DNA of 64,000 bases from Thermococcus thioreducens (GTDB taxonomy: Archaea > Methanobacteriota_B > Thermococci > Thermococcales > Thermococcaceae): the NCBI RefSeq assembly GCF_002214545.1, contig NZ_CP015105.1, forward strand, positions 1,798,001-1,862,000, in the 5' to 3' direction. This document shows, piece by piece, positions 51,251 through 61,589 of the stretch. The notes below the pieces were generated by a model. It was given only the letters and a program-made list of their open reading frames with translations, made no database searches and was not told the DNA's origin. The translations under genes and the position numbers were made by a program. Each line of letters begins with the position of its first letter. Within the stretch, counting starts at the first letter, position 1.

Positions 51251-53203
51251 TCAGGAAACCGAGACACTGAAGGTCGCCAGGATTCTCAGGTACGAGCCGT
51301 CGATGCCGTTCATGTAGTCCCTTATTTTTCCTCCGGTGGCCCACCTGTCCTGCCCGGCGAGGACTATGACAACCTGTCCCTCGGCCCAGACGTTGGTCTT
51401 GACGAACATGCCCCTCTCTCCGTTTCTCACCGCACTCTGCTCGCCGGGGGTTAGAACCTGCATGACGTAGCCACCAACGCCGTCGTAGGCGTCGGGCCCG
51501 CCGAGGATTATGATTATCCTCGAGTCCCTGTAGGCCTCGAAATCGTCGGCGGTAGCGCGCTTCACCGAGAGGCCAAATGCACCCAGCTGTGAAGCCAGCA
51601 GGTTGCCCTTGATGCCCCAGTCTATGTCGTTGGAGAGGATAACAACCTCGGGCATCTGGACTGGCCTGTAGTTCAGGGTCCAGTCGACCAGCTCCCTGAG
51701 AACCGAGAGCTCCCCCTCACTGCCGGCCTCAAGCTCCAGGGAACTGTAGACGGCACGGTAGTTCCCATCGGTGGCAAGTATTCCACCGCTGTAGTCACTG
51801 GTGCGGGCTAGAAGCATCGGGACGTAGCCCCTGAGGGCATGGAGGAGCCTGACGCGCTCAAGGAGCTTCCTCTCGATGGGAATCTCCGCCACCATGCCGT
51901 TGTAGCCCATCACAACACCCCTGTCCGTAACATCCATGGAGGAGAGAATCCCCGGCAGAACCATCGACGCCGAGAGCGAGAAGTTGAACTGCACACCAGT
52001 GATGTTCTTAACGGACTCGCCCATTTCCCTCATCCTGAGACTGTTCTCCGAGGCGAAGCGTGAGACGCTCCTCTTGGCCATGCCGAAGTGGGTTGGCGAA
52101 AGCACGCACTGCCACCCAACGGTGGAGTAGGTGCTAACATCGATTGTGCCGCCGTTGAACGGCCCCCTGTCTGAGAGCATCAGTGAGTAGCCGGTGTTTA
52201 CGTACGGAACCATCACAGAGGCCTGGGTGAGGTTTAGTTCCCCCCTGGCCGCATCCGCAATGGCCAGCGAGTCAAGGCCAAGGAGTTTCGCTAGGCTCGG
52301 CGGGTCCTCTGTACCTCCGACGTGCTGGGGGTTGGTAGCATCGAATAGGTTCCCCGCCGTGACCACAAGGCCGGCGTGGTGAGTTTCAAGATAGTCCCCA
52401 AGGACTGAAATCTGATCCTCGGAGAGGCCCCAATCCGGGAGCCAGAGGTTCGAGAGTATAACTGCCTGGGGCTGGAAGCTCTGCAGGGCATTGACGAGCT
52501 CATCGGGGGAGACTATCTTTATGTTGTAGTACTTGGCCAGACCCTCCCAGTGATGGTCCGAGAGCATCCAGGGTTTCAGGCGGGTTAAAGGCTTCGCGAC
52601 GGCCTCAAAGTCCGAGAGGTTGTAGTGGTAGAAGCTCCGGGAGACGTTAAACTGTGCCATCAGCGAGTCCAAGGACTTTTGAAAGGCCATTGCCTCAACG
52701 GAGGGGTCAACTATCAGAACCTTCGGCCCATCGGGATTGGCAACGTAGTACGAATAGACAGGGCTGTAGGACACGTGCCCCTCGACGTCAGTGACCACTA
52801 TCTTGAACTCTATCCTGCTCCCCGGCGGTGCCCCCGGCAGGTTTATCTTGCGGTAGAAGACGTAGAAGTCCTGACTCTCACCGTAGAAGCGGCGTATTAT
52901 GGACTGATAGAGCGACCAGTTCTCACCGGCAGCGGCCTTTTTAACATAGGCCTGCTTCCAGTCACCGTCGTTTACTCTGTAGTATGCCTCAACCTTGCCC
53001 TCACCCACCGTGACCCCAAAGTCATCGGCTATGTAGAAGTACACGGTGAACTCCTCGTAGGGACCAACGACAAAATCCTTGGGAACGTTACCCATTATTA
53101 TTATTGGCGGCCTCAGCTCCGAGACTATTACGGCTGAGGAGGCTGGTGGAAGGAGCATACCGAACAGCAACAGCATTGCAAAAACCGCTTTGAGCTTATT
53201 CAT
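51251..53203 (-). CDS. secreted protein with S-layer-like C-terminal domain
   Basis: A 650-residue exported protein. Signal peptide at 1-23 (MNKLKAVFAMLLLFGMLLPP region, cut near ASSA). A beta-rich first third (VYFYIADDFGVTVGEGKVEA) precedes a GATase-like or Rossmann-like middle (VLIVDPSVEAM, VVTAGNLFDATNP). The C-terminal section (IIIILGGPDAYDGVG; VVIVLAGQDRWATGG) resembles the C-terminal repeat of Thermococcales S-layer and cell-wall proteins. It is divergent from a FecCD-type importer with separate TATA boxes (53241-53250 here). Function unknown; surface anchoring is likely. Confidence 0.65.
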   Translation of the reverse strand: MNKLKAVFAMLLLFGMLLPPASSAVIVSELRPPIIIMGNVPKDFVVGPYEEFTVYFYIADDFGVTVGEGKVEAYYRVNDGDWKQAYVKKAAAGENWSLYQSIIRRFYGESQDFYVFYRKINLPGAPPGSRIEFKIVVTDVEGHVSYSPVYSYYVANPDGPKVLIVDPSVEAMAFQKSLDSLMAQFNVSRSFYHYNLSDFEAVAKPLTRLKPWMLSDHHWEGLAKYYNIKIVSPDELVNALQSFQPQAVILSNLWLPDWGLSEDQISVLGDYLETHHAGLVVTAGNLFDATNPQHVGGTEDPPSLAKLLGLDSLAIADAARGELNLTQASVMVPYVNTGYSLMLSDRGPFNGGTIDVSTYSTVGWQCVLSPTHFGMAKRSVSRFASENSLRMREMGESVKNITGVQFNFSLSASMVLPGILSSMDVTDRGVVMGYNGMVAEIPIERKLLERVRLLHALRGYVPMLLARTSDYSGGILATDGNYRAVYSSLELEAGSEGELSVLRELVDWTLNYRPVQMPEVVILSNDIDWGIKGNLLASQLGAFGLSVKRATADDFEAYRDSRIIIILGGPDAYDGVGGYVMQVLTPGEQSAVRNGERGMFVKTNVWAEGQVVIVLAGQDRWATGGKIRDYMNGIDGSYLRILATFSVSVS

Positions 53204-58558: not shown

Positions 58559-59698
58559 ATGAAGCTTGTCTGCCCCATCTGTGGAAAAACCTACGAGGAA
58601 CCTGTTCAGAGGTGTGAATGTGGCGAGCCGGTGGAGTTTGAGACGTTTAAGGGAGAACCATACATAGGAAAGAGCGTCTGGGAGAGGTTTTGGGATTTCT
58701 GGCCGGTGGAACCGGCACTGGAGCTTTCCCTCGGCGAGGGCGACACACCGCTGATTAGGTCGAAGCTCGGCAAGGAGCTCGGCGTAAAGCTCTATCTCAA
58801 GAACGAGACGGCTAATCCAACGTGGAGCTTCAAGGATAGGGGGACGTTTCTGGCGATGAGCTACGCGGTTAAGGTCGGCTACAAAGCCGTTGGGACTGTA
58901 TCGACTGGCAACATGGCGGCGAGCGTTTCGGCATACGCTTCCCGCTTTGGATTGAAGGCGAAGATTCTGGTTTCAGAGAGCGCGAGCGACGAAAAGCTGA
59001 AGGCCGTTTCGGTGTACGGTGGCGAGGTCATTAGAGTTCGCGGCGACTACGGAAGGCTCTACTTCGATAGCATGAAGCTGGGAAAAAGGCTCGGCGTTTA
59101 CTTCATGAACTCAGACAACCCCTTCAGAGTGGAGGGCTACAAGGGCATAGCATTCGAGATAGCTGAGGAGATAAGCCCTGACTACGTTCTGATTCCAACG
59201 AGCTCGGGCGGACTCTTCCGGGGAGTCGCCAAGGGATTCATCGAGCTCCACGAGAGCGGACTCATCGATAGGGTTCCCACCCTCATCGCCGTCCAGGCTG
59301 AGGGCTGCTCACCGATATGCAGGGCCTTCCGTGAAGGAAAAATAAGAATAGAGCGCTTTGAAACCCCTAAAACGATAGCCAAGGCCATAGCCACCCCATC
59401 CCCGCCGAGCGGGAACGCCGTGCTCAAACTCCTCCGCGAGTTTGGCTGGAAATGCGTTTCAGTGAGCGACGACAAAATCCTTGAAGCCCAGAGGAAGCTC
59501 GCCGGTGAAGGCCTCTTCGTCCAGCCGGCCAGTGCGACTGGAATTGCCGCGCTGAAGAAGCTCGAACTTCCGGAAGGGGCCAAGGTAGTCTCAATACTCA
59601 CCGGTTCCGGGCTGAAGACTCTCTCGACGACAGGGCAGGGTAAGGTGAGGGAATGTCATCTTGAAAGGCTGGAAAACTGCATCAAAAATGATTCATAA
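58559..59698 (+). CDS. thrC: threonine synthase
   Basis: A 379-residue PLP enzyme that converts O-phosphohomoserine to threonine. It has an N-terminal zinc-ribbon-like CPICGKTYEEPVQRCEC, the PLP lysine in SFKDRGTFLA, a phosphate loop (STGNMAASVSAYA), and the late glycine-rich GSGLKTLS. The length fits the archaeal form. It pairs metabolically with KBL at 40763, which acts on threonine breakdown products. It overlaps the convergent small membrane gene by 17 nt. Confidence 0.9.
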   Translation: MKLVCPICGKTYEEPVQRCECGEPVEFETFKGEPYIGKSVWERFWDFWPVEPALELSLGEGDTPLIRSKLGKELGVKLYLKNETANPTWSFKDRGTFLAMSYAVKVGYKAVGTVSTGNMAASVSAYASRFGLKAKILVSESASDEKLKAVSVYGGEVIRVRGDYGRLYFDSMKLGKRLGVYFMNSDNPFRVEGYKGIAFEIAEEISPDYVLIPTSSGGLFRGVAKGFIELHESGLIDRVPTLIAVQAEGCSPICRAFREGKIRIERFETPKTIAKAIATPSPPSGNAVLKLLREFGWKCVSVSDDKILEAQRKLAGEGLFVQPASATGIAALKKLELPEGAKVVSILTGSGLKTLSTTGQGKVRECHLERLENCIKNDS

Positions 59699-59936
59699 AG
59701 AAGCGTCTCGCCCGCTGCCTGTTCCCCTCATTTTTCTCGGACAGCAGATCAGGGTTCTCCGCAAATAGGAACTCATAAAAGCGCTTCAGGAGGAGCATGG
59801 CTCCAGCATAAAGCCACACAAAGAACGCGGCGATACCGTTGGTAAAGTAACCCCAGAAGAGTAGCGTCCCGACTATAACGCCGAACGAGAGGGCGATCAT
59901 GAGCCTAAGCAGGAGCGCATAGCCGTAGCGCTCCAT
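59682..59936 (-). CDS. small two-helix membrane protein, unknown
   Basis: An 84-residue protein (MERYGYALLLRL start) with hydrophobic segments at about 7-30 and 34-52 and a long basic tail (KRFYEFLFAENPDLLSEKNE). No family recognised. Alternative starts are GTG 59963 and GTG 59954. The promoter region carries a 10-bp dyad overlapping the TATA box, so expression is probably repressed by a dimeric regulator. It overlaps thrC convergently by 17 nt. Confidence 0.6.
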   Translation of the reverse strand: MERYGYALLLRLMIALSFGVIVGTLLFWGYFTNGIAAFFVWLYAGAMLLLKRFYEFLFAENPDLLSEKNEGNRQRARRFFMNHF

Positions 59937-59964
59937 CAATAGCCCAAAATCCACACCACTCACC

Positions 59965-59990
59965 AAACATTTACAACGGTGTAAATGTTT
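59965..59990. promoter_or_regulatory. perfect dyad operator at the promoter of the 59682 gene
   Basis: AAACATTTAC (59965-59974) and GTAAATGTTT (59981-59990) form a perfect 10-bp inverted repeat with a 6-nt spacer. The right arm runs into the minus-strand TATA box (ACTTATAAA, complement of 59988-59996). The expected transcript start falls on the left arm, so a bound repressor would block TBP or polymerase. Confidence 0.7.
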
Positions 59991-60089
59991 ATAAGTTTTA
60001 CTCCTGCTCAAAGTCCAGAAGGAAATAGCAATGAGTAAAACCGAGCAAAACGTATAAACGGGAAAGGACACAGCAACACAGGTGATACC

Positions 60090-60881
60090 ATGCTCGCTGG
60101 AGTTGGCCTGATGCCCCACGGAAACCCGGTTTTAGAGCCCCCAGATGAAGATACGAGAAGGCTCGCAGATGTCCTGAAGAAAATTGGGAGAACTTTCGCC
60201 GGTGTGGATTCCTACGTCCTCATAAGCCCCCACAACGCTCGTATGAGCGAGCATCTTGGCGTTATTTTAGCCGAAAACCTCGTCTCGTGGCTCGGCTTTG
60301 AGGGGAAAGTGATACCTGGCGAGTGGAAGACCGACCGCGAACTGGCTGAGAAAATTTACAGAGAGGAGAAAGACGCAGGAATGCCTGTCGTTGATTTGAA
60401 CTTCGCTTCCCTTAGCGGGGAATATTCAAGATGGCCGTTAAGCTGGGGCGAACTCATACCGCTCCAGTTCCTTGAAAGAAAACCGCTGGTCCTCATGACC
60501 CCGGCGAGAAATCTTAGCAGGGAGATGCTAGTTAAGTTCGGCGAAACGCTTGGAGATATCATCGAGGTAAGCGGGAAGAAAGTAGCGTTGATAATCAGCG
60601 CAGACCACGGACATGCACACGACGAGAAAGGACCCTATGGCTACAGAAAGGAGAGCGAAACCTACGACAGGCTCATCATGGAGCTGATTAACGAGAACCG
60701 CCTTGAAGAGCTATTAAAAATCCCCGAGGAGCTCGTGAGGAATGCCTTAGTTGACAGCTACTGGCAGATGCTCATAATGCTCGGGGCAATGAGAAATGCC
60801 GAATTCGAGCTTAAAGATTCAGCCTACGCCTGTCCGACCTACTTTGGCATGGCGGGGGCGCTGTGGGTGAGGAAGGTTTAA
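60090..60881 (+). CDS. LigB-family extradiol dioxygenase-like protein
   Basis: A 263-residue class III extradiol dioxygenase fold. Metal-binding or catalytic His residues lie in LMPHGN, VLISPHNARMSEH and SADHGHAH. Members cleave catechols or act in unknown reactions, and the related MEMO/AmmeMemoRadiSam proteins are non-enzymatic. Substrate unknown here. A TATA box lies at 60051-60059 and GGTGATACC is the ribosome binding site. The following VapBC TATA box overlaps its stop. Confidence 0.8.
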   Translation: MLAGVGLMPHGNPVLEPPDEDTRRLADVLKKIGRTFAGVDSYVLISPHNARMSEHLGVILAENLVSWLGFEGKVIPGEWKTDRELAEKIYREEKDAGMPVVDLNFASLSGEYSRWPLSWGELIPLQFLERKPLVLMTPARNLSREMLVKFGETLGDIIEVSGKKVALIISADHGHAHDEKGPYGYRKESETYDRLIMELINENRLEELLKIPEELVRNALVDSYWQMLIMLGAMRNAEFELKDSAYACPTYFGMAGALWVRKV

Positions 60882-60915: not shown

Positions 60916-61176
60916 ATGTCATCAACAAAGCATGTTCAGACTGAGATAGATGAAAGTCTTTACTCAATGCTAAAAGCCCTCTCCCTAAGGGAAAAAAGAC
61001 CCATAAAGGAAATCCTGCGGGATGCAATAGAGGAGTACCTGCGAAAAAATGCGAATTTAACCGAGGAAGAGATTTCAAAAGACCCAATATGGGACGCCTT
61101 TGGGGTTGTCGCGCTGAAGGGCAAAAGGACCAGCCGTGATGAGGACTGGGGAGTGGTTGAATGGCGAAGCCATTGA
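60916..61176 (+). CDS. ribbon-helix-helix antitoxin (VapB type)
   Basis: An 86-residue protein: a ribbon-helix-helix DNA-binding N-terminus (HVQTEIDESLYSMLKALSLR, RPIKEILRDAIEEYL) and a toxin-binding tail (DPIWDAFGVVALKGKRTSRD). It overlaps the PIN toxin gene by 16 nt. ATG 60916 has GGTGATT upstream. Different antitoxin fold from the AbrB-type pair at 30044. Confidence 0.86.
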   Translation: MSSTKHVQTEIDESLYSMLKALSLREKRPIKEILRDAIEEYLRKNANLTEEEISKDPIWDAFGVVALKGKRTSRDEDWGVVEWRSH

Positions 61177-61589
61177 AACCCGAGCTATTTTACATGGACA
61201 CAAGCGCGATGATAGCACTTCTCGTTAGGGACGACCCGGAGCACGAAAGGGCGCTGAGCTTCTTCAGAGATGCCGTCAGAGGGGGCTCGGTCTTTGTAAT
61301 CGGAAGACCAACATTGATGGAGTTCCTGAACGGTGTTGCGAAGCACGTTGGAAAGGACGTAGCCGAGGAGCAGTACCGGCTCTACACGTCGAGCAGGTTT
61401 ATATTCATAGAAAAGGAGAACGAGGCAGACTGGACGAGGGCCTGGGAGCTCTTCTTCAAGTACCGAGACCAGCGGGGGATAGACCTCTTTGACAGCTTAG
61501 CTTTCGCGATAATGGAGAGGCTCGGAATCAGGAAAGCCTTTACCTTCGACAGCGACTTCGTTGTTCATGGGTTCACAATGCTACCCTGA
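61161..61589 (+). CDS. PIN-domain toxin (VapC family)
   Basis: A 142-residue PIN ribonuclease with acids in YMDTSAMIAL, LMEFLNG, IDLFDSLAFAIM and FTFDSDF. It pairs with the ribbon-helix-helix antitoxin, which overlaps it by 16 nt. RNA target unknown. It ends 4 nt from the convergent AlaX gene. Confidence 0.88.
   Translation: MAKPLKPELFYMDTSAMIALLVRDDPEHERALSFFRDAVRGGSVFVIGRPTLMEFLNGVAKHVGKDVAEEQYRLYTSSRFIFIEKENEADWTRAWELFFKYRDQRGIDLFDSLAFAIMERLGIRKAFTFDSDFVVHGFTMLP

Follow-up and report, generated by a model that had tools for sequence, protein, structure and literature searches.

The window analysed here, a stretch of 64,000 nucleotides (64 kb) of DNA, carries on its minus strand a small gene for a membrane protein, with thrC and a LigB-family gene as neighbours and an inverted repeat in its promoter (Table 1). 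The first-pass annotation had given this gene 84 residues, and this model is wrong, because a GTG codon at 59954, 18 nt (six codons) upstream of the ATG at 59936, gives a protein of 90 aa. At this start position GTG or ATG is found in 13 of the 14 orthologues described below (12 counted by script and that of G069 by eye) and GTA in G029; relatives of the protein open with MDFxLxMERYGY, and a start at the ATG would drop the conserved MDFxLx N-terminus. Judging by its codon changes, the 90-aa protein is under purifying selection, dN/dS being 0.06–0.20 in five comparisons with dS of at least 0.5 and 0.23 and 0.60 where a pair is very close and has few changes (two pairs); two more distant pairs were saturated. 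The protein matched no entry in Pfam or NCBIfam and no homologue of it was found in the plasmid collection; its structure predicted from the single sequence is helical, with a mean pLDDT of 86 and a pTM of 0.48.

Table 1. Features around the small membrane-protein gene (positions in the window)
Feature	Position	Strand	Basis or remark
thrC, threonine synthase, convergent neighbour	58559..59698	+	Last 17 bp (3' end) shared with the small gene
Small gene for the 90-aa protein (two hydrophobic segments, MDFGLLMERYGY...), starting at GTG	59682..59954	-	Sequence, conservation
Ribosome binding site GGTGAG, abutting the dyad	59959..59964	-	Sequence; fits GGDGRD
Zone of the predicted transcription start, some 23 bp past the TATA box	59963..59969	-	Inferred from the T. 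kodakarensis median
Dyad, almost certainly an operator, AAACATTTACA-N4-TGTAAATGTTT, 11-bp arms	59965..59990	.	Sequence, conservation, matrix
TATA hexamer TTATAA of the small gene	59989..59994	-	Sequence
BRE-like GTAAAAC just upstream of TATA	60001-59995	-	Sequence
LigB-family gene, divergent neighbour	60090..60881	+	Pfam PF02900; own TATA-like box near 60050

On the plus strand the repeat reads AAACATTTAC AACGGT GTAAATGTTT, and on the minus strand, from 59990 to 59965, AAACATTTACA-CCGT-TGTAAATGTTT. The perfect 10-bp dyad described in the first-pass annotation is present as given, and its perfect arms are even longer, 11 bp around a 4-bp spacer, with symmetry at 12 of 13 half-positions. In 40 dinucleotide shuffles of the 64-kb window, perfect dyads with arms of at least 11 bp occurred 0.075 times on average; the real window holds three, this one included, and the other two both lie inside the first 600 bases. 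Perfect inverted repeats with arms of 10–11 bp lie there at 96-121, 315-338 and 562-585.

Read along the minus strand, the promoter presents the BRE-like element, the TATA box, the dyad, the ribosome binding site and the GTG start in this order. The median distance from TATA to the transcription start is 23 bp in T. kodakarensis, and the consensus GGDGRD for ribosome binding sites is reported in the same source (available text of PMC4247193). Since that median would place the transcription start of the small gene near 59966, the dyad should fill the space from TATA to about +1, and a leader of about 12 nt would contain little besides the ribosome binding site. The dyad shares its first two bases with the end of the TATA hexamer and reaches close to the predicted start, so that the overlap with the TATA box claimed previously is correct for these two bases, and otherwise the dyad lies downstream of TATA. 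It is scarcely credible that the dyad works as an RNA hairpin, with the small gene's leader serving as an attenuator or riboregulator. The strand does fold, with -13.3 kcal/mol at 37 C and a z of -2.1 against shuffles, but with transcription predicted to start at its far end most of the dyad should remain untranscribed, no Rfam match was obtained in 59600-60200, and the element is 73% A+T, a composition that makes for weak hairpins in the heat at which such organisms grow. A role as core promoter of the LigB-family gene, which we take to encode a MEMO-like protein, is also unlikely, because that gene has its own upstream TTATA box in 12 of the 14 loci. On the 3' side of the LigB-family gene, 60916-61589 on the plus strand encodes an RHH protein (PF12651, just below the cut-off) and, next to it, a PIN-domain protein, a pair resembling a VapBC-like toxin-antitoxin system.

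Conservation was examined in 94 Thermococcaceae genomes, including the genome of the window itself and 61 genomes of its genus. A protein search with the small gene matched 25 of the 94 genomes and gave 14 orthologous loci, all of them beside thrC and 13 also beside the divergent LigB-family gene. TTTAC-N6-GTAAA is present in the promoter at all 14 loci; TTATAA is found in 11 of them and TTTAAA in G027 and G026, with neither in G042. Averaged over all pairs, identity reaches 0.93 in one arm and 0.86 in the other, compared with 0.81 over the first codons, 0.56 upstream and 0.55 in the spacer. Position 5 of the left arm is altered at four loci: in G026, G022 and G029 the change from A to T is accompanied by T to A at the mirror position of the other arm, and G027 has G at position 5 with the mirror change absent. 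At several diverged loci the outer positions of the dyad are asymmetric. Because the arms are far more conserved than the flanks and the spacer, and because three of the four changes at position 5 are mirrored, we regard the dyad as almost certainly an operator and not a product of chance, and the operator claim of the first-pass annotation is borne out at the orthologous promoters. Of the two findings that were to count jointly against it, the uniqueness of the exact dyad has indeed been observed, as described below, and loss at orthologous loci has not, the site being kept at 14 of 14.

Three of the 14 small genes are broken, those of G042 and G069 by frameshifts and that of G029 by loss of the start codon and an in-frame stop. 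All three retain the dyad, in G042 even where the TATA box has gone, which points either to recent decay or to an additional role of the site. Exact TTTAC-N6-GTAAA occurs at none of 15 loci of distant paralogues (L016-L031 without L028), three of which (L019, L022 and L026) have a one-mismatch variant of either this pattern or the core defined below, and the 10 places in the 94 genomes that match the 10+10 dyad with one mismatch or none are all at the small gene. In a collection of 84,980 species, whose count may omit records near the window, the form AAACWTTTACA-N4-TGTAAAWGTTT, to which the diverged orthologues relax the motif, was found in two stretches, one from a Thermococcaceae MAG and one from a Nomurabacteria MAG; no stretch of the viral contigs contained the extended dyad.

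The genome scan proposed previously, in which further copies of the dyad were to define a regulon, yielded no second copy at up to three mismatches, either within the window or across the 2.07-Mb genome. Because the exact dyad has this single copy, we adopted a looser core shared by related sites, TTTWCA-N4-TGWAAA, which the dyad contains exactly, as do 12 of the 14 orthologous loci, with one mismatch in L004 and more than one in L011. The exact core occurs 271 times in the 94 genomes against 87 times for the reversed control (binomial p = 4e-23, with genome relatedness ignored), and 123 against 27 times within the genus. The genome of the window by itself gives no evident excess, 5 against 4 in the control, and the extended form there gives 9 against 2 (p 0.065). 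The five cores of this genome are the dyad, one at 161342 in the promoter of an Opp/Dpp-type permease gene, one at 1875543 in the divergent promoter of a transglutaminase-like and a BtpA-family gene, and those at positions 53049 and 655833. Elsewhere in the family, the motif also precedes the genes of a family of membrane proteins of about 210 aa, with which the 90-aa protein has no detectable homology (hhalign probability 3.4).

The permease belongs to the BPD_transp_1 family (PF00528). Its best NCBIfam match is the oligopeptide permease Opp4B, at 168 bits against a much higher cut-off of 450, and nickel permeases also match; a designation as 'dppB' or a peptide permease is thus at most likely, and our weighting of the main reading below does not depend on its substrate. 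The gene ahead of the permease (a 456-aa fragment in L064) had no Pfam match and gave no help in naming the substrate. Because the permease had first been met through the motif, we sampled it anew by protein homology, ignoring the motif. This search matched 87 of the 94 genomes at E of at most 1e-60, and the upstream stretches of all 87 were used (30 available as loci and 57 fetched separately); the 17 least similar matches, with 49–53% identity, may represent a paralogous permease. The exact core is present in the 120 nt upstream in 59 of 87, and a core with at most one mismatch in 71, the reversed control giving 0 of 87 in both counts; the 59 exact sites are also counted among the 271 cores mentioned above. 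Of the 71 sites, 68 have their core 2–7 nt beyond a TATA-like heptamer; the other three show distances of 11 and 19 nt and, in one case, no heptamer. The remaining 16 promoters, all from the less similar group, carry without exception TTTAAC-N6-GTAAAA 2 nt after TATTTAA, a pattern that was defined post hoc after inspection of the sequences. A dyad of this general type is thus present at all 87 permease promoters, and 84 of the sites lie 2–7 nt past a TATA-like box.

A symmetrised matrix trained solely on the 36 distinct permease sites scores the dyad of the small gene at 25.9 bits, which falls inside the training range of 22.1–35.0 and is the top score of the 64-kb window, where the next site reaches 12.1. 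As at the permease, the core follows TATA by a few bp, and the small gene and the permease can be said, on this sequence comparison, to share both motif and promoter geometry; since the permease was reached via the dyad, the likeness of motif is partly selected, and the independent observations are the conservation and the position of the site at the permease. The suggestion of a regulon made from the window therefore has to be reworded: it fails for the exact dyad, which is unique, and stands for the looser motif, which is common to Opp/Dpp-type permease promoters throughout the family. We consider that a regulator common to the small gene and the permease is probable.

One may instead assume a dedicated operator, at which a separate regulator recognises the symmetric dyad alone, the permease sites being similar because their regulator is a different member of the same protein family. 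The dyad is symmetric, almost invariant and unique in the genome at up to three mismatches, compared with usually asymmetric permease sites (TTTACA/TTTTCA), and the small gene has a patchy distribution (14 orthologous loci in 94 genomes) compared with a nearly universal permease (87 of 94); the symmetric form is thus peculiar to the small gene and leaves room for such a regulator. However, half-site, spacing and placement relative to TATA agree with the permease sites, and the form seen in diverged orthologues (AAACTTTTACA-N4-TGTAAAA) comes near that of the permease, and we judge this alternative to be unlikely.

Among specific candidates for the regulator, a PadR-family protein encoded at a 4HBT-thioesterase locus deserved attention, because several genomes have a strong dyad between the thioesterase gene and a divergent gene for the membrane protein of about 210 aa, with the PadR gene beside the thioesterase, and because a PadR relative is found at E of at most 1e-8 in 82 of 94 genomes, that of the window included. 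Against this, none of the 14 PadR neighbourhoods (6 kb each) of the genomes with the small gene holds the core at up to one mismatch, although the small gene and PadR coexist there, and a homologous membrane gene that in another genus lies beside an RNase PH-family gene also carries the motif; the motif therefore follows the membrane gene and not PadR. Furthermore, permease sites are kept in genomes without a PadR hit, namely G035 and G072 (99% complete) and G065 (75% complete), and in two with a weak hit only (G012 and G059). We dropped PadR as the regulator on the basis of the site-free loci and of these PadR-less genomes, and consider it a very unlikely cognate repressor. In the genome of the window the corresponding cluster (L176, G000:C1:399300-405300) consists of an MFS transporter, PadR and the 4HBT thioesterase, and has neither the 210-aa membrane gene nor a dyad there.

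Returning to the putative regulator shared with the permease, we compared the dyad with archaeal sites described in the available parts of the literature. An operator between TATA and the start is of a type already known: LrpA of P. furiosus, of the Lrp/AsnC family, binds its autoregulatory site just downstream of TATA together with TBP and TFB, and represses by blocking the recruitment of RNA polymerase (PMC2995911). The dyad likewise borders TATA on the downstream side; the likeness is one of position. The same source names dpp genes among the Lrp targets of Halobacterium (Table 2 of PMC2995911). CopR of P. furiosus, another Lrp/AsnC protein, has the palindromic thermococcal motif TTNNCAWWWTGNNAA, whose half-site TTNNCA fits both TTTACA and TTTTCA, but its centre is 3 bp instead of the 4 bp of the dyad, which by eye does not belong to the CopR type, and the CopR site lies directly upstream of the BRE (PMC7830388). 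An Lrp/AsnC protein as regulator is a lead and nothing more. EnfR, a Tfx-family repressor, has a pseudo-palindromic site near the gene start in the codh promoter of T. onnurineus, but its half-sites AATcT-N8-AcATT are, by our own reading, opposite in direction (PMC10570040). The conserved thermococcal promoter palindrome of TFB-RF1, TCTGAANTTCAGA, has an ABC transporter among its promoters, but differs from the dyad in sequence, length and position, lying upstream of a weak BRE (PMC5937170). As far as the available text of these two sources goes, neither the EnfR site nor the TFB-RF1 motif fits the dyad.

Activation, or a dual role of the site, has to be weighed against repression. At the transglutaminase-like and 210-aa membrane-protein genes, inspection by eye places the motif upstream of a TATA-like box, the side from which CopR and TFB-RF1 activate (available text of PMC7830388 and PMC5937170). 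At the small gene and the permease, however, the site occupies the interval from TATA to the predicted start, in which a protein on the DNA should collide with RNA polymerase, and we hold an activator or dual site to be rather improbable and repression to be quite probable. The repressor site proposed in the first-pass annotation is accordingly plausible to the extent that its TATA-to-+1 position, as at P. furiosus LrpA, carries it, and no further; tight control of the small gene would be an inference.

The reading towards which we lean on balance is that a dimeric, sequence-specific transcription factor binds the dyad and represses the small membrane-protein gene. One protein would bind both this dyad and the permease site, and, when bound, would leave TBP and TFB in place but block RNA polymerase; repression of this LrpA type appears the most likely because the geometry downstream of TATA is the same. 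Release might come from a signal that depends on the supply of peptides or amino acids, a guess that may well be mistaken. More tentatively still, one may imagine an envelope and peptide-uptake regulon throughout Thermococcaceae, under one conserved repressor, from a family that has so far no link to the member genes; these would include the Opp/Dpp-type permease, the small two-helix membrane protein, the 210-aa membrane proteins, and transglutaminase-like and solute-binding proteins. Thermococcales feed largely on peptides, yet in the open-access literature we found no regulator site named at this permease, and found neither the dyad motif, its link to the permease, the regulon nor a regulator for the motif. 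The dyad and the permease site together provide bait of defined sequence for fishing out the regulator, and the reuse of the motif at an orphan membrane gene may tie the small gene to nutrient uptake.

Several further occurrences of the motif can be mentioned as observations in their own right. It lies between the BtpA-family and transglutaminase-like genes in four genomes (L067, which is the core at 1875543 on G000:C1, L095, L130 and L199). A one-mismatch core is found upstream of a second BPD_transp_1 permease at L063 (G000:C1:153513) and L142, and G030 has an exact core before a gene resembling this second permease. In five genomes (L036, L037, L039, L080 and L084) the motif, with three mismatches to the 26-mer, is located upstream of the gene for a protein of about 200 aa that contains YExxFRxK and a hydrophobic stretch.
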